This document shows, one piece after another, positions 4,918-50,464 of a DNA stretch of 57,456 bases. The stretch's first letter is position 1. Each line of letters starts with the position of its first letter. Source of the DNA: Ignavibacteriota bacterium (GTDB lineage: Bacteria > Bacteroidota > Ignavibacteria > UBA10030); contig PMZI01000045.1 of the NCBI GenBank assembly GCA_003170475.1, forward strand, positions 130,608-188,063. Reading direction: 5' to 3'. Position numbers and translations under genes: made by a program. The notes beneath the pieces were generated by a model. It worked only from the letters and a program-made list of their open reading frames with translations, searched no databases and was not told the origin of the DNA.

Positions 4918-5523
4918 ATGGAACAGAAACCGGTTCGAGAGATCCGAAACCATCGATTGAGCCATATCCCGATTCTTAAAGTTGATCCCATCGTGATTGA
5001 ATCAAAGTTCGGTCACGGATGCTCTATGTCCAACTGCAATGCCACCTGCTGCCAACATGGGGTGATGGTGGATCTACAGGAAAGAGACAAGATCCTGCAG
5101 CATGCTGATCTTGTCAGAAAACACATGGAGCCGGAACAAGAGCATGATTCCTCCCAATGGTTCGACCCCGAAGATGAACCGGATACGGACTTTCCGTCGG
5201 GGCGGGCGATTGGAACGCAGGCGAATGAACGGGGGTGCATCTTCCTGATGAAAGATGGACGATGTGTGCTTCAGTTCGTCGCGGCAGAAGAGGGGATATC
5301 CAAACACACTTTGAAGCCGTTCTTCTGTTTCGCGTTTCCGGTAACGATAGAAACGGGCGTCCTGACCATCGATGATCCTGATTTCACAAATCGCCCCGAA
5401 TGCTGCAGCATGGTTCCCGGTGGAAATCACTCTGTCCTGGAAGTGTGTGCTGAGGAGTTCGAATTCGTGCTTGGCGAGGAGGGGATGAAGGAACTCACTG
5501 AGATGGTACACCCCAAGAAATAG
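4918..5523 (+). CDS. DUF3109/YkgJ-like cysteine-cluster protein, 201 aa
   Basis: A cytosolic protein with many cysteines in spaced clusters: GCSMSNCNATCCQHGV near residue 35, GCIFL-x5-GRC near residue 105, FFCFAFPV near residue 140 and ECCSM near residue 160. This is the layout of DUF3109/YkgJ proteins, thought to bind zinc or an iron-sulfur cluster. Function unknown. It follows mutS by 54 bases on the same strand and could be cotranscribed. A second, more typical member lies at 49892-50464. Family assignment is by motif pattern only. Confidence 0.7.
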   Translation: MEQKPVREIRNHRLSHIPILKVDPIVIESKFGHGCSMSNCNATCCQHGVMVDLQERDKILQHADLVRKHMEPEQEHDSSQWFDPEDEPDTDFPSGRAIGTQANERGCIFLMKDGRCVLQFVAAEEGISKHTLKPFFCFAFPVTIETGVLTIDDPDFTNRPECCSMVPGGNHSVLEVCAEEFEFVLGEEGMKELTEMVHPKK

Positions 5524-25440: not shown

Positions 25441-26913
25441 TTGCCCAAGCGCACAGACATCAAATCCATCCTCATCATCGGCTCCGGCCCTATCGTTATT
25501 GGTCAAGCATGCGAATTTGATTACTCCGGCACTCAGGCCTGCAAGGTCTTGAGAGAAGAGGGATATCGCGTCATTTTGATCAACAGCAATCCTGCAACGA
25601 TCATGACCGACCCTGAACTGGCCGATGCGACGTATGTTGAGCCGATTACTCCCGCCGTTGTGGAAAAAATCCTTGAAAAAGAGAGGCCGGATGCCATCCT
25701 TCCGACGATGGGTGGCCAGACAGCGTTGAACATCGCTGTGGCGTTGGCAGATAGCGGCGTTCTGGAGAAATACGGAATCGAACTCATCGGGGCAAAACTC
25801 GAGGCGATCAAAAAGGCGGAAGATCGCGAGTTGTTTCAGGATGCGATGAACCAGATTGGTCTTGAATCTCCCCGCGGAAGGTTTATCCATACCATGGAGG
25901 AGGCGCTTGAGGTCGCAGAGGAAATCGGTTTGCCGATTATCATTCGCCCATCGTTTACGTTGGGAGGGACTGGCGGAGGAACTGCGTACAATCTCCATGA
26001 GTTTCGGGAAAAAGTCGAGCATGGCCTCACGAGCAGCCCGATCCGCCAGGTTCTCGTCGAAGAGTCTGTGATAGGTTGGAAGGAATACGAGCTTGAAGTG
26101 ATGCGCGACCTCAGAGACAATGTGGTCATCATCTGTTCGATCGAAAATTTTGATCCTATGGGCGTTCACACCGGCGACTCGATTACCGTAGCGCCGGCGC
26201 AGACGTTGACTGACAAAGAGTATCAGGTGATGCGCGATGCGGCGATCAAGATCATTCGCCAGATCGGAGTTGAAACCGGAGGCTCGAACATTCAGTTCGC
26301 CATCAATCCGGTGGACGGTCGGATGATCGTGATCGAAATGAATCCGCGCGTTTCCCGCTCCTCAGCGTTGGCATCGAAGGCGACGGGCTTCCCCATTGCA
26401 AAGATCGCGGCGAAGCTTGCCGTGGGGTACACGCTCGATGAAATTCCCAATGACATTACGAAAGAAACACCGGCATCGTTTGAGCCCACCATCGACTACT
26501 GTGTCGTCAAGATCCCGCGATGGGATTTCGAGAAGTTCAAAGGCGTCGATGATACGCTCGGTGTGCAGATGAAATCGGTCGGAGAGGCGATGGCGATCGG
26601 GCGGACATTCAAGGAGGCATTTCAAAAAGCGCTTCGTTCTCTGGAGCAGGGGAGATTTGGTCTGGGCGCGGACGGGAAAGATGTTTTCGATATCCGGAAC
26701 CTCCCGGAGGGCAAACGTGACGAGATAAAGAAGAAAGTCATGGATCGATTGAAGATGCCGAAGCCCAACAACGTTTTCTACATGCGATATGCTTTCCAGC
26801 TTGGGGTATCGATCGACGAATTGTTCCGTGTGACGAAAGTGGATCCTTGGTTTCTGTACAACATCAAGCAGATTGTCGATTGCGAGGAAGAGCTTTATGG
26901 GTATACTGTCTAA
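25441..26913 (+). CDS. carB: Carbamoyl-phosphate synthase large subunit, N-terminal half (split CarB)
   Basis: 490 aa covering the carboxyphosphate-synthesising half of CarB. It begins with TTG and reads [10 protein letters not shown], identical to the E. coli CarB start. It has the biotin-carboxylase-like and ATP-grasp segments ([59 protein letters not shown]). It stops within the oligomerisation domain after [16 protein letters not shown], about where E. coli CarB continues into GLNADFLRQLKRKGF. The last 17 bases overlap the next gene. The partner half is at 27366. The complete CarB makes carbamoyl phosphate for arginine and pyrimidines; the CarA subunit is not in the window. Confidence 0.96.
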
Positions 26914-27388
26914 CGTCCGACGGTGGTTGACGGCAGCAGTTTTGCTTCTGCCCGTTGTCATCTTTGCCCAGCAAACTGTCCCGCCGGACAAGGAAGGCTT
27001 GTTGAAGGGCCAAGGCATGGGGCTGGCAGAGGTGGCTGAAATCAACAACTTTCCTGGACCGAAACATACGCTCGATCTCAAAAACGAGCTCGGTCTCACA
27101 AGAGATCAGTTGAAGAAGACCGAAGCGCTGGACAAAGTAGTTGCAAGTGCGGCGCTCGCGAAAGGCGAAGAGATCGTCACTGCAGAGGAAGAACTGACGA
27201 AACTTTTCGAAGCTGGGACCATCAGCGAGAAAGCTTTGCGATCCAAACTCGAGGAAATCGCAAAATTGAGAGCCGATCTTCGCTTCATCCATTTGCAGGC
27301 ACACTTGCGAATGAAACAGATCCTGACGCCGGATCAGATCAAACGGTACGCAGAACTCAGAGGACATGAAGCAAAACTCGAAAATTAA
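26897..27388 (+). CDS. Exported Spy/CpxP-like helical protein nested between carB halves
   Basis: 163 aa. Signal peptide (residues ~1-25, ending IFAQ). The mature part is helical and charged, with two LTxxQ-like motifs ([10 protein letters not shown] and [10 protein letters not shown]), as in Spy/CpxP/zinc-resistance-associated periplasmic proteins, which act as chaperones or metal-stress sensors. It starts at ATG 26897, with GAGGAAGAG 4 bases upstream inside carB1, and overlaps carB1 by 17 bases and carB2 by 23 bases. Its presence between the two halves of a cytosolic enzyme is striking and has no obvious functional reason. Family assignment moderate; coding status strong because of the signal peptide and coupled overlaps. 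Confidence 0.8.
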
Positions 27389-29198
27389 AGATCCTTTGAC
27401 CCGGGTGACACGCGAGGCCATGCTCAAAGCCAAGCAGTATGGCTTCTCGGACATGCAACTCGCTCACATCTGGGGATCCACGGAGAAGGCCCTCCGGCAG
27501 CTTCGCAAAGAGATAGGCGTGATTCCGGTCTATAAGACCGTCGATACTTGCGCCGCTGAATTTGAAGCTCATACCCCGTATCACTACTCGACGTATGATC
27601 AGGAAAACGAGTCTGTGCGGACTGACCGCAAGAAGGTTATCATTCTCGGCGGTGGCCCTAATCGGATCGGCCAGGGAATAGAGTTTGACTATTGCTGTGT
27701 CCACGGAGTGTATGCCCTCGCAGAAGAGGGAATAGAAACAATCATGATCAACTGTAATCCGGAAACTGTTTCGACGGATTACGACACGACAGACAAACTC
27801 TATTTTGAACCGTTGACGCTCGAAGACGTTCTCAACATTTACGACCATGAGCAACCACTTGGAGTGATCGTGAGCTTTGGCGGTCAGACTCCCCTCAAGA
27901 TTGCAAAGTCTCTCGAAGACCACGGCGTCAAAATTCTCGGAACCTCCTCTGAGGGAATTGACATTGCCGAAGACCGCGAGCGTTTCGGAGCGCTGTTGCG
28001 AAAGCTGAAGATTCCCCATCCCATGTACGGAACGGCATATTCTGTGACGAACGCCGTCCTGGTGGCAGAGCAAATCGGTTTTCCCGTCCTCATTCGCCCT
28101 TCCTATGTTCTCGGCGGACGGGCGATGGAAATCTGCTACAACAGCGATGCAGTGCGCGAGTACATGAAAAAGGCCGTCGATGTGTCTCCCGACCACCCCG
28201 TGCTGATCGATAGGTTTCTGGAGGATGCGTTTGAGTTCGACGTAGATGCCGTCTGCGACGGAAAAGATGTGCTCATCGGCGGAGTCATGGAGCACATTGA
28301 GGAAGCGGGGATCCATTCCGGCGACAGTTCATGCGTCTTACCTCCGTATATGATCTCTGAGAAGAATCTTGAGGACCTCAAGATCCACACCGTGAGGCTC
28401 GCAAAGGCGCTGAAAGTCATCGGCCTGATCAATATACAGTACGCGATGAAAGACGGAGTGGTCTATGTCCTTGAGGTGAATCCCCGGGCATCGCGGACGG
28501 TTCCTTTTGTGAGCAAGGCGGTTGGTCTTCCGCTCGCGAAAATTGCGGCGAAAGTGATGGTTGGCCGAACGCTCGAAGACCTTGGAGTGAAGGATTTCGA
28601 TTATCAGAAGGTGAAACACATTTCCGTGAAAGAGGCGGTTTTCCCGTTCTCGAAGTTCCCGCGTGTTCCAGTATTCCTGGGACCGGAGATGAGATCGACG
28701 GGAGAGGTCATGGGGATTGCGTCGGAATTCGGAGCAGCGATCGCGAAAGCGCAGATGGGTGCCGGAAATACGCTCCCGACGGAAGGAAAGATTTTCATCA
28801 GCGTCAACAACAGTGATAAGAACGAAATCACCCTCGAGATAGCCAGAGGATATGAGCGATTAGGGTTTTCCTTTGTTGCGACGGAAGGAACAAGCCGGTT
28901 CTTGTGCGAACACGGCATACCGTGCGAGTCCGTCTACAAGGTGAACGAGGGCCGGCCAAACATCGTCGACCTGATCAAAAACGGAGAAATCAAGCTTGTC
29001 ATCAACACTCCGCTTGGCGAAGAGTCGCGCTATGATGAGTACTCCATAGGCTGGGCGGCCATTGAACAAAAAGTGTCCTTCATAACCACCCTCTCTGCTG
29101 CCGCATCAGCAGTCAAAGGCATCGAACAGCAAAAGAGCCACGGCATCGAGGTTCGCAGCCTTCAAGAATACCAGAAGGGAATCCCGGCCACAACGTAA
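27366..29198 (+). CDS. carB: Carbamoyl-phosphate synthase large subunit, C-terminal half (split CarB)
   Basis: 610 aa covering the rest of CarB. It starts in the oligomerisation domain (AKQYGFSDMQLAHIWG) and continues through PVYKTVDTCAAEF, the carbamoyl-phosphate ATP-grasp half (GGGPNRIGQGIEFDYCCVHG, NCNPETVSTDYDT, LIRPSYVLGGRAM, LEVNPRASRTVPF) and a C-terminal MGS-like allosteric domain (residues ~490-600). Together the halves give 1100 aa against 1073 in E. coli, so nothing is missing. ATG 27366 lies inside the preceding gene, with AGAGG just before it, so translation is probably coupled. Function requires assembly with the N-terminal half. Confidence 0.96.
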   Translation: MKQNSKIKDPLTRVTREAMLKAKQYGFSDMQLAHIWGSTEKALRQLRKEIGVIPVYKTVDTCAAEFEAHTPYHYSTYDQENESVRTDRKKVIILGGGPNRIGQGIEFDYCCVHGVYALAEEGIETIMINCNPETVSTDYDTTDKLYFEPLTLEDVLNIYDHEQPLGVIVSFGGQTPLKIAKSLEDHGVKILGTSSEGIDIAEDRERFGALLRKLKIPHPMYGTAYSVTNAVLVAEQIGFPVLIRPSYVLGGRAMEICYNSDAVREYMKKAVDVSPDHPVLIDRFLEDAFEFDVDAVCDGKDVLIGGVMEHIEEAGIHSGDSSCVLPPYMISEKNLEDLKIHTVRLAKALKVIGLINIQYAMKDGVVYVLEVNPRASRTVPFVSKAVGLPLAKIAAKVMVGRTLEDLGVKDFDYQKVKHISVKEAVFPFSKFPRVPVFLGPEMRSTGEVMGIASEFGAAIAKAQMGAGNTLPTEGKIFISVNNSDKNEITLEIARGYERLGFSFVATEGTSRFLCEHGIPCESVYKVNEGRPNIVDLIKNGEIKLVINTPLGEESRYDEYSIGWAAIEQKVSFITTLSAAASAVKGIEQQKSHGIEVRSLQEYQKGIPATT

Positions 29199-36073: not shown

Positions 36074-36445
36074 TCAGCGTTCCGCGTTCTTCTTTTCTTC
36101 GGTTTGAACTTCCCGCGATTTCTCGTCTTTTCCTTGAAGAAAAAGGTAGTAGAACCCCACCTCGCCAAACGTCAGGAGCAGAAGTGAGATCGTGTCACGA
36201 TTCAGTTCCTTTCGCAGTGTTCGAAGGAACATTGAATCCGTCTGATGATAGTACCATTTGATGAAGAACTCCGGAGTGAAAAGCAGATTCGTGAACACGG
36301 TCGCGATTGTCCAGCCGACTGCGAACACAATGCCCAGGAAGGCTACAGCAAGAATGCCCTCACTCACGCCTCCTGCGCGCCGTCGCGTAATGAAAGCGTA
36401 AATCGCCGCACACACGTGGAGGAAGAAGATGAATGCAGAAGCCAT
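36074..36445 (-). CDS. Small conserved-looking membrane protein, 123 aa
   Basis: Three hydrophobic segments (residues ~3-20, ~28-52 and ~82-100) with a charged tail (GKDEKSREVQTEEKKNAER). No family recognised. It lies 36 bases downstream of the sugar-transferase gene and may belong to the same transcript. Coding status is supported by the helix pattern and tight spacing. Confidence 0.65.
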   Translation of the reverse strand: MASAFIFFLHVCAAIYAFITRRRAGGVSEGILAVAFLGIVFAVGWTIATVFTNLLFTPEFFIKWYYHQTDSMFLRTLRKELNRDTISLLLLTFGEVGFYYLFLQGKDEKSREVQTEEKKNAER

Positions 36446-36481: not shown

Positions 36482-37897
36482 TTAGTAGGCATCCTTGCCG
36501 AATAAGACAGCGTGGACAGTCTTTAAAATGATCTTGATATCAAAGACAAGCGACCAGTTCTCCACATAGTACACGTCGTATTTCGTCCGTTCCTCGATGG
36601 GCGCATTTCCCCGAAGGCCGTTCACCTGAGCCCAGCCGGTCATCCCTGTCTTTACCCTGTGTCGGTCGAGGTACTTCGGGATTTCCTTCCCGAATTGGTT
36701 TACGAAGTGCGGCCTCTCAGGTCGCGGTCCCACGATGCTCATGTCGCCCTTGATGACGTTGAGAAGCTGAGGGAGTTCGTCCAGGCTGAAGCGACGTAGG
36801 AATGTCCCCACCTTTGTCTTTCGCGGATCGTTCTTATGAGTCCACACCGGTCCAGTCTCCTTTTCTGCATCGGCCCGCATTGTCCGGAACTTGATGAGCC
36901 GGAAGGTCTTGCCATCCAGCCCTACCCGCTCCTGCCGATAGAACAGCGGCCCCTTGGAGTCCAGTCCGATCAAAACTGCAATCACGGCAATGAGGGGAGA
37001 AGATAGGATGAGGAAGAACGCCGATGTAGCCACATCGAACGATCGCTTGACGATAAGATTCCATGTTGTGAGCGGAACCGATTTGATCTTGATAAACGGA
37101 ATACCGTGAAGCTCCTTGATGCGAACCCGGCTGGTCATAAGTTCCAGCATGTCGGGCACCATCATGATCTCCGTGTTGAGCCCCTCACAGTCACGCACGA
37201 GCTCGTAAAGCTGCGGATGATCCTTGTACGTAAGAGAGACGAGAACAATGTCGACCTTGTGATCTTTGATGAACTGCGGCACGTGTGAAAGGTGACCGAG
37301 GAAATCTATCCCAGCCGTTTCCATTTCATTGAGACCATTCACAGAGAAGAAGCCGATAACACGATAGCCGAGTGATCGGTTCGAACTGATTCCGTCGTAC
37401 ATGCGGCGTGCCGTCGCGTTGGTTCCAACGATGACGACATCCCGGAGATCGTGTCCCCGGGAGTACCAGAATTGTTCGAACTTGTGTACGCAGAATCGGG
37501 TAAGTGCAATGAAGACAATCGCGGAGACTGCGAGGAGGACGAAGACCGCGCGCGAATAAGAGAACGCCCTATAGAAAAACGCCGCGCTCATGACGATGAG
37601 CATGCCGAAGAACACCAGGCGGACGACGGCGAAGACTTCGTCAGTGAAATAGACGGTTCTTCGTGACGAGTACATGTGCCTGGAGTGGAACAACAAGAGC
37701 CATGTGGGAATCACCAGAAGGGAGCCCAAAACATATGCGTTCAACACAGGCACTCCAAGTTCAACAGGAAGGAGGTCTGTGAACGGAGAATGGAACCGCA
37801 ACCAGAAAGAGAAAAGAAATGCTGCCTCAATGGCGATTGCGTCAGCAAGGACGGTGAGCAGTGGAATCAAGAAATCTTTTCGATTATGTCCAGGCAT
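36482..37897 (-). CDS. Polyprenyl-phosphate sugar phosphotransferase (WcaJ/WbaP type)
   Basis: 471 aa. Four to five N-terminal membrane helices, a central nucleotide-binding-like domain (DVVIVGTNATARRMYDGI) and a C-terminal bacterial sugar transferase domain: KRSFDVATSAFFLIL, GPLFYRQERVGLDGK, KFRTM, the catalytic Asp-Glu in SLDELPQLLNV, and VGPRPERP. It loads the first sugar-1-phosphate onto undecaprenyl phosphate, starting exopolysaccharide or O-antigen synthesis. Which sugar is used cannot be told. ATG 37897 is preferred; GTG 37909 is in frame. Confidence 0.93.
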   Translation of the reverse strand: MPGHNRKDFLIPLLTVLADAIAIEAAFLFSFWLRFHSPFTDLLPVELGVPVLNAYVLGSLLVIPTWLLLFHSRHMYSSRRTVYFTDEVFAVVRLVFFGMLIVMSAAFFYRAFSYSRAVFVLLAVSAIVFIALTRFCVHKFEQFWYSRGHDLRDVVIVGTNATARRMYDGISSNRSLGYRVIGFFSVNGLNEMETAGIDFLGHLSHVPQFIKDHKVDIVLVSLTYKDHPQLYELVRDCEGLNTEIMMVPDMLELMTSRVRIKELHGIPFIKIKSVPLTTWNLIVKRSFDVATSAFFLILSSPLIAVIAVLIGLDSKGPLFYRQERVGLDGKTFRLIKFRTMRADAEKETGPVWTHKNDPRKTKVGTFLRRFSLDELPQLLNVIKGDMSIVGPRPERPHFVNQFGKEIPKYLDRHRVKTGMTGWAQVNGLRGNAPIEERTKYDVYYVENWSLVFDIKIILKTVHAVLFGKDAY

Positions 37898-37990
37898 TCT
37901 TGAGTGCACGATTTTGGAAAGAGGAAAGTTCGGAACACGGGTCCCGGATGCAACGGTTTGACCGTATGAGCTATTCAGACCAATGGCGGG

Positions 37991-38596
37991 TTACCCAAAC
38001 ATCTCCTGTTCTACTTCCTGAAAAATGATATGACCGATCGTGATATGTCCTTCCTGTATTCGCTGTGTGTCGCTCGATGGGACCATCACTGCAAGTTCGA
38101 CAAGATCTTTGGATTTGCCCCCGTCTTTTCCGAGGAGGGCGATAGTTTTCATACCTTTCTCGCGGGCCTTTCGAAAGGCGTTGTTCACACTTTCAGAATT
38201 GCCGCTCGTGCTGAGCCCGATTAAGATGTCGCCTTCGTTCCCGAGGGCCTCGACTGATCGGGCAAACACATTGTCATAGCCGATATCATTTGCACCCGCT
38301 GTCAGCAGGGATGAATCAGCCGTGAGGGCGATGGCTGGCAGGGCGGGGCGCTGAAGTTTCGGATTGAGTCGAATGACAAATTCCGTGGCAAGATGCTGAG
38401 CGTCAGAGGCGCTTCCGCCGTTGCCGCACAGAAGTATCTTTTTCTTCTTGTTAAAGGCCTCAATAATCATATCAATCGCCTTGATAATTTCAGAGACACA
38501 CTGCTCGGCGATCTTCTTTTTTGTTTCGGCGCTCTCCTTCAGAGAGTCGAGGATGAACTTCTGACGGTAAACGAGCGTAAGCGGTAAATGCGCCAT
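37991..38596 (-). CDS. gmhA: Phosphoheptose isomerase (SIS domain)
   Basis: 201 aa with one SIS domain: LLCGNGGSASDAQHLATEF, IGLSTSGNSESV and the zinc-site and catalytic C-terminus EGHITIGHIIFQEVEQ. Its length and these motifs match GmhA, which converts sedoheptulose 7-phosphate to D-glycero-D-manno-heptose 7-phosphate for LPS heptose. It lies 15 bases after the GGGP synthase gene in the clpS-alaS run. Confidence 0.9.
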   Translation of the reverse strand: MAHLPLTLVYRQKFILDSLKESAETKKKIAEQCVSEIIKAIDMIIEAFNKKKKILLCGNGGSASDAQHLATEFVIRLNPKLQRPALPAIALTADSSLLTAGANDIGYDNVFARSVEALGNEGDILIGLSTSGNSESVNNAFRKAREKGMKTIALLGKDGGKSKDLVELAVMVPSSDTQRIQEGHITIGHIIFQEVEQEMFG

Positions 38597-38611: not shown

Positions 38612-39376
38612 TTAATTTGTTCGGGAGCGAGGCGCCCGGGAATGCACGGCCTCGGCAAATTCCTTGATGAACGAGTGATGGTTGTTGTGTTCCGTGACAG
38701 TTCCGGTGACGACAAAGGAGGCGCCCGCCTCAACTTTTCTTCGAGCTTCCTCAGGAGTTCGGATTCCGCCCCCAACGATGACAGGGAGAGCGCAATTGCT
38801 TGCGATGGCACGAAGCATCTCTTCGGGCACAGAAGCGTTCGCGCCGCTGCCGGCATCCAGGTACAGGATCTTCATTCCGATGATCTCGGCCGCGAGGGCA
38901 TGGGCAACGGCAATGTCGGCCTTGTCCCGGGGAATTGGTTTTGTGTTGCTCATAAATTCGGCGGATGTTGTGTTTCCCGCCTCGATGAGCATGTAGCCTG
39001 TCGAGATGGGTTCAAGGCCACTACGTCGGATGATCGGAGCGGCGATCACCTGGCTGCCAATCAGGTGCTCCGGGTTGCGGCCGCTGATGAGAACAAGAAA
39101 AAGTATTGCATCCGCGATCGAGGAAACCTGCATGATGCTGCCCGGGAAGATGAGTACGGGGACGGATGTATTCTGTTTGATCGTCTTCAACTGCTGCTCA
39201 AACTCGTCTGTTGACATCAGGCTTCCGCCTACCAGAAATCCGTCAACACCCGCCTCTGTTGCTTCCTGGATGAAGGAGGGAAGTTGATCCCGCTTGTTCT
39301 TGTCCGGGTCAAGCAGGATGAAATAGCCAGCACCGCGCTCTTTGCGGACGTCGAGAAGTCGATCGAAAGTGGTCAT
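38612..39376 (-). CDS. Geranylgeranylglyceryl phosphate synthase family protein
   Basis: 254 aa TIM-barrel with the PcrB/GGGPS signature: FILLDPDKN near residue 20, GVDGFLVGGSL, VLIFPGS, GYMLIEAGNTTS, KILYLDAGSGA and PVIVGGGIRTPEEARR. GGGPS makes the ether bond between glycerol-1-phosphate and a C20 prenyl chain, the first step of archaeal lipids. Bacterial members of the family (group II) exist in the Bacteroidota; their product in vivo is poorly known. It lies 9 bases after alaS. No glycerol-1-phosphate dehydrogenase is in view. Confidence 0.92.
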   Translation of the reverse strand: MTTFDRLLDVRKERGAGYFILLDPDKNKRDQLPSFIQEATEAGVDGFLVGGSLMSTDEFEQQLKTIKQNTSVPVLIFPGSIMQVSSIADAILFLVLISGRNPEHLIGSQVIAAPIIRRSGLEPISTGYMLIEAGNTTSAEFMSNTKPIPRDKADIAVAHALAAEIIGMKILYLDAGSGANASVPEEMLRAIASNCALPVIVGGGIRTPEEARRKVEAGASFVVTGTVTEHNNHHSFIKEFAEAVHSRAPRSRTN

Positions 39377-39385
39377 AATGAGTGC

Positions 39386-42235
39386 CTAGTTGCCGGTCAA
39401 CATTGTCTGTACGATTGATGGCGTCGCTGCCAGCGCCTCAGGGAGTTTTGAAACGTCCTTGGCGCCGGCTGTCGCCAGATGTGCCTTACCACCGCCTCCA
39501 CCGCCCATGAGTTTGGCAACGCTTCCCACGATCTTTCCCGCTTCGAGTTTCTTGCTGCCTGCGAGATCGTCTGTGACGACGCAGACGAGAGAAACCTTTC
39601 CGTCGATGATGGCTGCGAGCAGGCCTACGCCCCTTCCGAGCTTGGTCCGGAGAGCGTCTCCGAGGAGTTTCAACTCGTCCACTGACTGAGCCTCGACCTG
39701 AGTCGAAACAACCTTGACATCCTGTACCAACTTCGCGGTGTTCACGAACCCGTCTATGGTTCCGGCCTGAGATTGTAGCCTGTATTTCGAAAGCTCACGA
39801 TCGATGAGCTTGCGCTTGTCGGCGAGGTCGAGGATGAGAGACTCAAGAGACAGTCCGCGCTCGGTCCGGGCAATAAAATGTCCACGGAGGTTTTCCGCGT
39901 AGCCTTTCGGAGAGGTTGGAGCGTGTCGCAGAACACCGGTCTGTGCCTGAAGCTTCGCCAGGGAGGATTCGAATTCCGACGCCAGCGGGCTTTTGTGTGC
40001 TTTGAGCTGGACACTGAGATCCTGGAGTTCCTGGAACTGGATCTCCGCATACCCAAGTCTCTCTTCGGCATTACGATCCTGCAGTTTCATCAGCTCGAGC
40101 GCGTACTCCGCGGTCACTGCTTCGACCCTGCGAACACCGCTCGCGACGCTCCCCTCCGAGCGAAACTTGAAGTAACCGATGTCCCCCGTAGAGTGCACAT
40201 GGGTTCCACCGCAGAACTCCCTGGAATAGTCGCCGAATTCGACAACATTCACCCGATCGCCATACTTGTCCCCAAAGAACATCAGGGCTCCCATCTTTTT
40301 CGCATCGTCAAAGTGAATGTCCCGATAATGATGAAGCTTGATGTCTTCCTGGATTTTCTGATTGACAGCATCTTCAATGGCAGAAATCTCTTCCTCGCTC
40401 ACTTTGGAGAAATGAGCGAAGTCGAAGCGGAGATAGTCCGGTGCAACAAGCGAACCCGCCTGATGAACATGCGTTCCCAGCGTCTTCCTCAGTGCAGCGT
40501 GAAGAAGATGTGTGGCTGAGTGATTGCGCATGATCGATCCGCGCCGCAGCGCATCGACCTGGGCTCGTACCTTTTCGCCCACAATGGTCGGAGCAGGTTC
40601 CTTCAGGATGTGAACATTGAGATTGCCGACCTTTTGAGTGTCGTGCACGTTGAACGTCTGCTGGGCGATCCTCAGCACTCCCTGGTCGCCGACTTGTCCG
40701 CCGGCCTCGCCATAAAACGGCGTGGCATCGAGGACGAGGAGGTGACGGTCACCTTTGACGATCGTGGCTTCAACGTCGAGCTGGTCATACCCGACGAATT
40801 TCAACCGATTCTCGGCGATGTCTTTGGCAAATTTCTGAAGAATGTCCCGCCCTGGCAGATCGATTCGTTCCGAGTCCTCATGTGCTCCGGACGCCACCGA
40901 GATCGATGACCCGGAGACGCGGGAGCGGTCACGTTGCTTCTCCATCAATTCTGTAAATCCCACAACATCAACTTTGAGGCCACGTTCCGTCGCGAGCAAC
41001 TCGGTGAGATCGAGAGGGAAACCGTAGGTGTCGTACAGCTTGAATGCATCATCTCCCGGAAATGTCTTCGAGTGACCAATCTGTTGCGCCACCTGTTCGA
41101 AAATCTCCAGGCCGCGGTCGAGAGTCGCGTTGAAGGATTCTTCTTCGCCGCGGATAATCTTCTGGATATGGTCCTGCTTGTCCGTCAGCTCCGGAAAAAT
41201 GATATTCATCGTCTCGGCGAGCGTAGGGACCAACTTGTAGAGGAAGGGATCGTGCATGCCGAGGTTACGTCCGAACCTGGCGGCTCGTCGGAGCAGTCGG
41301 CGCAAGACATAGCCCCGTCCTTCATTCGAAGGAGTTGCGCCGTCTGCGATGGCAAACGTGAGAGCTCGGACGTGATCAGCAATCACTCGCATCGCAGTAT
41401 CGGTGTCGAATTGCTGCTTGTCGATGCCGGAGAGGCGACCATCGTAGGTCTTTTCGGTGATTTCGCACGTGCGACGGATCAAAGGCATGAAAACATCCGT
41501 GTCGTAATTCGAGAACTTATTCTGAAGAACTGCGCAGATGCGCTCGAATCCCATCCCCGTATCCACATGCTTCGCGGGGAGGGGGGTCAATGTTCCTTTT
41601 TCATCACGATTGTATTGGATGAAAACGAGATTCCAGATTTCCATCACTTCGGGAAGCCCTGCGTTGACCATGGAAGCTGTCGCGGTTCCGTCGGGAGTCC
41701 GGTCGATATGGATTTCGGAGCAGGGTCCACAGGGACCGGTTTCGCCCATTTCCCAGAAATTATCCTTTTCCCCAAATCTCAGAATGTGGCTGTGGTCAAT
41801 GTCCGTCACAGATTTCCAAAGCTCTTCGGCTTCACCGTCATCTTTGTACACGGTCGCCCACAACCTGTTTTTCGGCAATTTCCACACCTTCGTCAGGAGT
41901 TCCCACGCCCACTGAATCGCTTCCTTCTTGTAGTAGTCTCCAAATGACCAATTGCCCAGCATCTCAAAAAAGGTGTGGTGATAGGTGTCCCTTCCAACCT
42001 CTTCCAGATCATTGTGTTTGCCGCTCACACGAATGCATTTCTGTGTATCTGCCGCACGGCTATAGGAACGCTTCCCCTGTCCCAGAAAGACATCCTTGAA
42101 TTGATTCATGCCGGCATTCGCGAAGAGGAGAGTCGGATCGTTGTACGGAACGACCGGAGAACTCGGCACAATAGCGTGGCGCCGTTCGGCGAAGAACTGC
42201 AGAAAGCTCTGTCGTACTTCTGATGAGGTCATCAT
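39386..42235 (-). CDS. alaS: Alanyl-tRNA synthetase
   Basis: 949 aa. The catalytic core has FANAGMNQFKDVFLG, HHTFFEMLGNWSFGDYYK and ETGPCGPCSEIH. The editing domain has HSATHLLHAAL (HxxxH) and CGGTHVHSTG. The C-Ala domain ends with GGGGGGKAHLATAG. It charges tRNA-Ala and clears mischarged Ser/Gly. ATG 42235 or 42232 is likely; the frame reaches a TTG at 42241. It follows clpS by 21 bases. Confidence 0.98.
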   Translation of the reverse strand: MMTSSEVRQSFLQFFAERRHAIVPSSPVVPYNDPTLLFANAGMNQFKDVFLGQGKRSYSRAADTQKCIRVSGKHNDLEEVGRDTYHHTFFEMLGNWSFGDYYKKEAIQWAWELLTKVWKLPKNRLWATVYKDDGEAEELWKSVTDIDHSHILRFGEKDNFWEMGETGPCGPCSEIHIDRTPDGTATASMVNAGLPEVMEIWNLVFIQYNRDEKGTLTPLPAKHVDTGMGFERICAVLQNKFSNYDTDVFMPLIRRTCEITEKTYDGRLSGIDKQQFDTDTAMRVIADHVRALTFAIADGATPSNEGRGYVLRRLLRRAARFGRNLGMHDPFLYKLVPTLAETMNIIFPELTDKQDHIQKIIRGEEESFNATLDRGLEIFEQVAQQIGHSKTFPGDDAFKLYDTYGFPLDLTELLATERGLKVDVVGFTELMEKQRDRSRVSGSSISVASGAHEDSERIDLPGRDILQKFAKDIAENRLKFVGYDQLDVEATIVKGDRHLLVLDATPFYGEAGGQVGDQGVLRIAQQTFNVHDTQKVGNLNVHILKEPAPTIVGEKVRAQVDALRRGSIMRNHSATHLLHAALRKTLGTHVHQAGSLVAPDYLRFDFAHFSKVSEEEISAIEDAVNQKIQEDIKLHHYRDIHFDDAKKMGALMFFGDKYGDRVNVVEFGDYSREFCGGTHVHSTGDIGYFKFRSEGSVASGVRRVEAVTAEYALELMKLQDRNAEERLGYAEIQFQELQDLSVQLKAHKSPLASEFESSLAKLQAQTGVLRHAPTSPKGYAENLRGHFIARTERGLSLESLILDLADKRKLIDRELSKYRLQSQAGTIDGFVNTAKLVQDVKVVSTQVEAQSVDELKLLGDALRTKLGRGVGLLAAIIDGKVSLVCVVTDDLAGSKKLEAGKIVGSVAKLMGGGGGGKAHLATAGAKDVSKLPEALAATPSIVQTMLTGN

Positions 42236-42256
42236 GCCCAACGTATTCCCAACAAA

Positions 42257-42535
42257 TCAGTACTGTATTTGTGTATGAAGCGCAATTTCTTCAAGAATTC
42301 CCGAGACCTTGACACATTCTCCCATGGGCCCTTCGAAAACTGCTGCCTTCCCGGAGTTGTGTACTTCCCAAGTGAGGCCTTCTGCCTTGGAGGAATCGCA
42401 GCGCAATGCCTTGATGAGCTGTCCAATGACCTCCTCGAAAGAGTGGACTTCGTCATTGAACAGAATGACCCTGGCGGGCGGCTGCACGAGCACTTCGCCA
42501 TCTGATATATGCTCGATTGTAGTTTGTTGCGTCAC
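42257..42535 (-). CDS. clpS: ATP-dependent Clp protease adaptor ClpS
   Basis: 92 aa. The ClpS core is clear: VILFNDEVHSFEEVI (Asn-Asp of the N-degron pocket), the central helix, and the strand TWEVHNSGKAAVFEG followed by GECVKVSGILEEIAL. It delivers N-end-rule substrates to ClpAP-type proteases. It begins with GTG, with GAGGG 8 bases upstream. First gene of the clpS-alaS-GGGPS-gmhA run; its promoter is listed separately. Confidence 0.93.
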   Translation of the reverse strand: MTQQTTIEHISDGEVLVQPPARVILFNDEVHSFEEVIGQLIKALRCDSSKAEGLTWEVHNSGKAAVFEGPMGECVKVSGILEEIALHTQIQY

Positions 42536-49891: not shown

Positions 49892-50464
49892 CTACGATGT
49901 GGTTACTCCGTTTCTTCTCGTCTCACAATACTTGTGGAACTCTTCGTACCAATTCTCCTCGAAGGCTCTGGTAAGGGAGTCTCTCAAAAACTCTGACAAC
50001 CAGATACCTTCGTTCGCTCCACGTTCAAGTGCCGGCTGACATTCGGCGATGCTTTCAAACCGCAATCGCTCTGGGATGCCCGGACCAATACGAATAGGGA
50101 ATAAGTGGCACGATATTGGCTTACGCCATACAATTTCGTTGTTTTGATATGCTTTTTCAAACGCGCATTTCGCAATTTCGCCCTCGAAAAAGGCAAAAAC
50201 GCAAGCCTGGTTCTGCACAACCTGCGTAGTATAGTCACCTTTACGTCCTTGCACAAGTCCCCGTTCTTCAATCGTGTCCTTGTGTCGAAAACTCAGGTAC
50301 TTTCTGACCGAAGGGTATGCTTTCTCAATTTCCTCCAATTCCTCCTCACGAAGGGGAGCCCCACGCGATCCAGGCATCGTGCAACAAGCGCCTTTGCAGC
50401 GCGCCAGGTCGCATGCAAACCTGATGCTGGCGATATCATCTCCAATAAGAGGCTTTTCCGCCAT
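49892..50464 (-). CDS. DUF3109 family cysteine-cluster protein, 190 aa
   Basis: A typical DUF3109 protein of the Bacteroidota: FACDLARCKGACCTMPGSRGAPL near residue 15, REEELEEIEKAYP, then ACVFAFFEG-x4-CAFEKAY and PISCHLFPIRI. The cysteines probably hold zinc or an Fe-S cluster. Function unknown. It lies 22 bases upstream of rpoN. The promoter region carries a perfect 15-base palindrome. Confidence 0.88.
   Translation of the reverse strand: MAEKPLIGDDIASIRFACDLARCKGACCTMPGSRGAPLREEELEEIEKAYPSVRKYLSFRHKDTIEERGLVQGRKGDYTTQVVQNQACVFAFFEGEIAKCAFEKAYQNNEIVWRKPISCHLFPIRIGPGIPERLRFESIAECQPALERGANEGIWLSEFLRDSLTRAFEENWYEEFHKYCETRRNGVTTS

Follow-up and report, generated by a model that had tools for sequence, protein, structure and literature searches.

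A group II GGGPS gene in an Ignavibacteria-type bacterium and a probable isoprenoid diether lipid pathway

The gene at positions 38612-39376 (minus strand) of the 57,456-nt stretch of DNA analysed here (the window) is predicted to encode a group II GGGPS (phosphoglycerol geranylgeranyltransferase), which likely catalyses the opening step of isoprenoid diether lipid synthesis in its Ignavibacteria-type host. The source genome also contains genes for a DGGGPS-like UbiA protein, an archaeal-type geranylgeranyl reductase (GGR), a CdsA-like cytidylyltransferase, and a GGPP-synthase-like protein, and in a survey of 61 related genomes (families f1-f6) GGGPS, DGGGPS, and GGR tend to be present or absent together. 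From these genes we infer enzyme activities, substrates, an order of steps, and a lipid product: namely, a working group II GGGPS would join a C20 prenyl diphosphate to glycerol phosphate, the DGGGPS-like enzyme would turn the product into a diether, the CdsA-type cytidylyltransferase would activate this diether, and GGR would saturate the lipid chains, with isoprenoid diether phospholipids beside ordinary bacterial ones (a "mixed membrane") as the predicted outcome. The glycerol phosphate would be supplied either by an unrecognised route to glycerol-1-phosphate (G1P) or as sn-glycerol-3-phosphate (G3P). Archaeal-type lipids in bacteria, and the glycerol phosphate isomer on which they are built, bear on the "lipid divide".

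Identity, fold, and group of the GGGPS

The open reading frame (254 aa, ATG at 39376) is intact and had been placed in the GGGPS family in a sequence-only reading of the window. Profile searches bear this out: PF01884 (141.6 bits; cut-off, 23.9), NF003198 (288.5; 247), and TIGR01769 (204.9; 161.55) all match above their cut-offs and at full length, a family match of the predicted product that is far beyond chance. It is the one GGGPS match in the source draft genome (4.08 Mb, 85 contigs, 96.3% complete). Homologues with 43-86% protein identity occur at 62 loci in other genomes, the nearest of these GGGPS-bearing records being MAGs labelled Ignavibacteriales, Ignavibacteria, Ignavibacteriae, or Bacteroidetes, which places the host among Ignavibacteria-type members of the FCB group. 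A MAG titled Melioribacter roseus (L122) also carries GGGPS.

Since the Archaeoglobus-type (TIGR04146, 30.9 bits; cut-off, 320), haloarchaeal (TIGR04147, 25.4; 300), and PcrB heptaprenyl (NF003197, 23.3; 260) models all score far below their cut-offs, the predicted product is assigned to group II, to which it is closer than to group I. In a PDB sequence search, the best match was 4jej (9.5e-57), with PcrB chains at about 1e-5. The AF2 model (mean pLDDT 88, pTM 0.89) has the TIM-barrel fold of solved GGGPS structures, and the first 27 rows of a Foldseek search made with it were all GGGPS (4jej, 4mm1, 5ndy, 5nez, 5nf1, 6jo3, and 6nke), followed by PcrB and MoeO5; TM-scores by query were 0.87 for 4jej and 0.88 for 4mm1_A versus 0.75 for PcrB 3vzx_B and 0.80 for MoeO5. 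Clustering with PcrB heptaprenyl enzymes, the outcome that the sequence-only reading had named as telling against it, was seen neither in model scores nor in PDB matches nor in the Foldseek ranking, and a PcrB identity was rejected.

Candidate pathway partners elsewhere in the genome

Four UbiA-family genes were found in the source genome, three of which correspond in NCBIfam to heme O synthase, a menaquinone-type (ubiA_other/MqnP-like) prenyltransferase, and decaprenyl-phosphate phosphoribosyltransferase. The fourth (G000:C32:56670-57512) is the putative DGGGPS by best match, with orthology assigned by rank and not by cut-off: its best models are PRK12884 (prenyltransferase; 196 bits versus a cut-off of 269) and PRK12882 (DGGGPS; 181 versus 296), with chlorophyll synthase at 78. 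When a 14-row alignment of its orthologues was compared to solved structures, MjDGGGPS (6m31) scored 202 bits and chlorophyll synthase was next at 79. The residues N62, D63, D66, and D70, as well as D180, D183, and D187, are invariant in this alignment, and we take them to be the catalytic motifs of DGGGPS-like UbiA enzymes.

The archaeal-type GGR gene (G000:C32:46227-47120) exceeds the cut-off of TIGR02032 (230.9 bits; 158.8); its best model is NF041160, for the digeranylgeranylglycerophospholipid reductase of Thermoplasmatales (256.9 bits, below the cut-off of 780), and its best solved relative is 3oz2, a digeranylgeranylglycerophospholipid reductase (219 bits). Two genes for polyprenyl synthases are also present. 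At the fifth place ahead of the DDxxD motif one of them has Phe, the residue that a review gives as the rule for type-I GGPP synthases (PMC9385802), and the other has Ala.

GGR lies 10 kb upstream of the DGGGPS-like gene on the same contig (C32), near cdsA and bamA. The genes between them encode a GT9 heptosyltransferase-like protein, a GSU2086-family protein, a CPBP protease, the CdsA-type cytidylyltransferase (PF01148, 175.2 bits), RimO, a GWxTD protein, and a BamA-like protein, and an rnhB-like gene follows (the groEL, dnaG, and rnhB labels near GGR and DGGGPS were read from sequence by eye). This order is much alike in f1 (L179) and f5 (L182-L184, two of them without a GSU2086 match), and GGR is directly beside DGGGPS in L180 and L181. 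Across the 36 genomes that have both DGGGPS and GGR over cut-off, 23 carry the two genes no more than 20 kb apart on a single contig; the remaining 13 have them on separate contigs, and in one of these, G013 (20 contigs), they are probably truly apart. GGGPS itself is on contig C46 of the source genome, rather than side by side with DGGGPS on C32.

The GT9 heptosyltransferase-like gene (L178:7407-8459, on G000:C32) scores 130.3 bits with TIGR02201 (cut-off, 170.2) and 127.0 bits with TIGR02195 (134.6). It starts 24 bases after GGR in the source genome and is found near GGR in several f1 and f5 genomes.

Joint presence and absence across related genomes

Full-length GGGPS was found in 37 of the 61 genomes and a DGGGPS orthologue likewise in 37, with both genes in 35, neither in 22, and one alone in 4 (Fisher test, 3e-12, for genomes that are non-independent by kinship). 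The real number of independent events is small, because families inherit the genes together: all 22 sampled genomes of f2, f3, f4, and f6 lack both GGGPS and DGGGPS, and the rest belong to f1 and f5. GGR matches over cut-off come from 37 of the 39 genomes in f1 and f5; among the other 22 there is a single one, in G055, whose best-matching stretch shares 26% identity with the source GGR. The four exceptions are G016 (94% complete), which has GGGPS and GGR and no DGGGPS match; G023 (72%), also with GGGPS and no DGGGPS; and G018 (81%) and G021 (69%), with DGGGPS and no GGGPS. These tallies count as lacking GGGPS three genomes (G034, G038, and G057) where a match of about 42-54 model positions and 24-28 bits raises the number over cut-off to 40/61, and they count DGGGPS as present in G017 and G020, where it lies in two contig-end fragments, and in G004 and G011, where it carries one stop each.

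Beyond the order, DGGGPS scored at least 217 bits in 15 of 19 genomes chosen from behind the 62 GGGPS loci, including 8/8 Ignavibacteria-type genomes, 5/5 from Calditrichota records, and 2/3 Neomarinimicrobiota. The other four were a Bacteroidia genome (161 bits), Saprospiraceae and Flavipsychrobacter genomes (about 80-83 bits), and one Neomarinimicrobiota genome with no match. The shared pattern of presence and absence of three pathway genes inside a single bacterial order is an argument for their joint action.

Glycerol phosphate source and the Asp174 substitution

No G1P dehydrogenase (EgsA/AraM) was found over the cut-off of model NF002022 in any of the 61 genomes, the best score in the set being 57 bits; the same model scored over cut-off in 3 of 14 control genomes. 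The best NF002022 match in the source genome (25.4 bits) is aroB (TIGR01357, 371.5 bits) and was rejected as a G1P dehydrogenase, and this same gene is the only match there to the broader Fe-ADH_2 model. The source genome is 96% complete, and the result is the same across the family. The sequence-only reading had held that a genome with no G1P source would speak against it, and in those terms the result does so. Absence of a recognised dehydrogenase does not refute GGGPS function, because Cloacimonetes GGGPS and DGGGPS genes give archaeal-type lipids in E. coli and the four MAGs of that study, as it describes them, equally lack the enzyme, some use of G3P being noted (PMC7852524). According to a passage in another paper, no mechanism of G1P synthesis other than G1PDH/AraM is known (PMC13400652).

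In GGGPS of both groups, a Tyr, a second Tyr, and a Glu are described as strictly conserved, and that Glu may polarise the G1P hydroxyl and has been proposed to bear on stereospecificity, as set out in part of a review (PMC9385802). The window GGGPS matches at Tyr128 and Tyr172, and its third residue is Asp174, not Glu, aligned with the catalytic, G1P-binding Glu of 4jej and 4mm1; the Tyr-Leu-Asp codons 172-174 are at 38855-38863 (minus strand, reckoned from the ATG at 39376). Both Tyr are invariant in 74/74 distinct GGGPS sequences, of which 48 have Glu at the third position and 26 have Asp (the set is 108 GGGPS minus duplicates and those of 200 aa or less, with near-copies remaining). Asp is found in the window clade and again in Bacteroidia-type sequences, with at least two changes on a tree of 76 rows (including two PDB rows and six rows without a label, Asp or Glu being classed by alignment column) that was used solely for the spread of these two residues and is unsure at its deepest forks and for long-branched rows.

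With Asp174 where Glu is called strictly conserved, activity with G1P is therefore not assured. The substitution is not coupled to the missing dehydrogenase, because relatives with Glu at this position, in f1 and f5 genomes, are equally without one. A literature search found no paper on a Glu-to-Asp change in GGGPS among the sources within its scope, outside which most subscription papers lay.

Residue 226, in the phosphate motif, is split evenly between Thr (37) and Asn (37) among the 74 distinct sequences. The window GGGPS has Thr226, and Thr in place of Asn here is a mark of group II, though not universal among the relatives.

The alaS-GGGPS-gmhA locus

As the sequence-only reading had reported, GGGPS is flanked by alaS upstream (a gap of 9 bases) and by gmhA downstream (a gap of 15). 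The alaS gene (alanine--tRNA ligase, 39386-42241, minus strand; TIGR00344, 936.6 bits) is preceded in the same conserved run by a gene for a clpS-like adaptor (42257-42535, minus; PF02617, 53.8 bits). The gmhA gene (sedoheptulose-7-phosphate isomerase-like, 37991-38596, minus; PF13580) is accompanied by one for a WcaJ-type undecaprenyl-phosphate glucose phosphotransferase (36482-37909, minus; TIGR03023, 475.1 bits; cut-off, 410.75). The neighbours named in that reading stand, but its "LPS operon" label is loose: gmhA falls just below the curated cut-off of TIGR00441 (199.8 versus 209.45 bits), and sugar transferases of the WcaJ type initiate exopolysaccharide synthesis.

Several other features of the window were recorded. 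A 123-aa protein with no family match (36074-36445, minus) comes after wcaJ and adjoins it in many relatives, being kept there in many f1 loci and more weakly in GGGPS-lacking families. The carB gene is split (whole region, 25441-29198, plus) into a first carbamoyl-phosphate synthase half (25441-26913) and a second half with an MGS domain (27366-29198), with a 171-aa open reading frame without a Pfam match (26873-27388) between them. Two DUF3109 proteins are encoded at 4918-5523 (plus) and 49892-50464 (minus), one a strong match (172.6 bits) and one a weak one (46.2 bits). Searches of the whole window for tRNA genes and for Rfam families at gathering score found none.

Leaving aside three loci of insufficient length, 43 of 59 evaluable loci have a gmhA on the GGGPS strand that begins no more than 200 bases after GGGPS, and 5 of the 16 evaluable loci without a close gmhA have one farther off. 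Ignavibacteria have the pair, as do 4/4 records of Neomarinimicrobiota and three of Calditrichota (L108, L119, and L130; not L139); it is absent from the Bacteroidia-type records L131, L133, L135, L136, and L138. The gene upstream of GGGPS varies: 25 of 61 loci have alaS no more than 300 bases away, and Neomarinimicrobiota have accC-, gcvH-, and gcvP-like genes there (read from sequence by eye). A larger conserved lipid operon around GGGPS was rejected, since neighbour clustering over 36 loci (L104-L139) returned the gmhA family in 22 and every other family in at most 6.

Ten gmhA regions were taken from families that lack GGGPS. Seven of them have alaS no farther than 250 bases from gmhA and no GGGPS, two (L193 and L195) have their best alaS segment at a distance of 2-3 kb, and L189 starts near a contig end. 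The alaS-gmhA run is intact in relatives without GGGPS and so is independent of it; the position of GGGPS within this run is inherited gene order and not evidence of an LPS-linked role. The gmhA gene scores at least 170 bits in 56 of the 61 genomes, including 19 of the 22 without GGGPS (none reaching the curated cut-off), and HldE passes its cut-off in 55 of the 61, including all 22 without GGGPS. In the source genome HldE scores 338 versus a cut-off of 345, the match ending at a contig end. Because gmhA and HldE are common in genomes without GGGPS, gmhA serves ordinary heptose synthesis. A second gmhA special to the lipid pathway was rejected: the source genome has one strong gmhA, with other matches at about 22 bits, and gmhA is also found in the GGGPS-lacking genomes. 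The envelope lipid role that the sequence-only reading had drawn from gene position is therefore weakly founded, in that alaS-gmhA persists without GGGPS and a different contig holds the likely partners in the pathway; of the gene order around GGGPS, only the GGGPS-gmhA pair is widely kept. Because this pair also occurs in other phyla, the simplest history would be an old GGGPS-gmhA pair followed by clean loss of GGGPS in f2, f3, f4, and f6.

Alternative explanations

The strongest competitor of the main reading, itself rather unlikely, is that the enzymes use G3P and yield archaeal chains and ether bonds with bacterial stereochemistry, Asp174 being part of the change. The lack of a G1P dehydrogenase over cut-off in all 61 genomes, the in vitro acceptance of G3P by a Cloacimonetes GGGPS (reported within PMC7852524), and the presence of Asp in the window clade at the Glu thought to bear on stereospecificity (PMC9385802, in part) speak for it. 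However, Glu is kept in 48/74 sequences, including those of dehydrogenase-lacking f1/f5 genomes, so that Asp does not track the absence; Glu to Asp is a conservative change; and G1P-type lipids are formed in E. coli, for which no such dehydrogenase is known (PMC7852524, as described there). The Asp174 clade, having no recognised G1P dehydrogenase, is a direct in vitro test case for stereochemistry. Less probable still is that the same enzymes make an ether lipid that carries, or is made with, heptose and anchors a heptose-containing envelope glycolipid. The recurrence of gmhA after GGGPS in three phyla while the upstream gene changes points this way, as does the GT9 gene next to GGR in several f1 and f5 genomes, but the strong gmhA and HldE of GGGPS-lacking genomes and the persistence of alaS-gmhA without GGGPS argue against it, and GGR adjoins DGGGPS, not GT9, in L159, L163, L177, L180, and L181. 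A reading that merges the two is about equally doubtful: a GGGPS with a shifted acceptor, as Asp174 and the lack of a recognised dehydrogenase might imply, would make diethers on G3P, possibly with further steps to an envelope lipid that bears heptose, at which the neighbouring gmhA and heptosyltransferase genes would hint.

Operation in reverse or in salvage, with breakdown of archaeal lipids, has been suggested for FCB members without G1P dehydrogenase (in a passage of PMC6431249), and no such dehydrogenase reached cut-off in the 61 genomes; it is nevertheless very improbable here, given the archaeal-type GGR and DGGGPS near cdsA and the biosynthetic behaviour of the Cloacimonetes pair in E. 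coli (PMC7852524, in part). A PcrB-type enzyme that, like its Bacillus counterpart, forms a heptaprenyl glycerol lipid with one chain has the PF01884 superfamily in common with the window GGGPS and can be set aside almost entirely on the NF003197 score and the distant PcrB structures, as well as on the DGGGPS and GGR genes. The diether pathway headed by a group II GGGPS is the preferred reading.

Comparison with known systems

GGGPS and DGGGPS are known from FCB bacteria (PMC7852524): a survey reports orthologues of both in all 12 FCB phyla covered, naming Ignavibacteria in its table for that group, and gives G1P dehydrogenase for only Fibrobacteres and Cloacimonetes among them (PMC6431249, from the parts available), a point on which the two papers disagree for Cloacimonetes. 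The FCB pathway and its missing dehydrogenase are already published. A literature search on GGGPS, Ignavibacteria, and gmhA found no paper that included gmhA. As far as the searches go, three points are new: the joint loss of GGGPS, DGGGPS, and GGR; the pairing of GGGPS with gmhA across three phyla; and the replacement of the catalytic Glu by Asp.

The source genome resembles the Cloacimonetes/FCB mixed-membrane pathway (PMC7852524, in part) in having GGGPS, DGGGPS, GGR, and a bacterial CDP-diacylglycerol synthase (here CdsA-type) and no known G1P dehydrogenase. The two differ in arrangement: GGGPS and DGGGPS are co-localised in Cloacimonetes, the only bacteria for which that study, as available, describes them side by side, whereas here GGGPS is with alaS and gmhA, and a separate contig carries DGGGPS in the vicinity of GGR, cdsA, and bamA. 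The PcrB/AraM pathway of B. subtilis (PMC9385802 and PMC13400652, each in part) begins with an enzyme homologous to the window GGGPS; PcrB belongs to group I, uses a C35 donor, and works with AraM, whereas the window GGGPS belongs to group II in a genome with no AraM/EgsA match over cut-off. The best solved sequence relative is the GGGPS of Flavobacterium johnsoniae (4jej), placed in group IIb in a passage of PMC9385802, with 44% identity and Foldseek TM-scores of 0.87 (query) and 0.91 (target). The two enzymes have identical residues at window Tyr128, Tyr172, and Thr226 and differ at Asp174, where the F. johnsoniae enzyme has Glu180.
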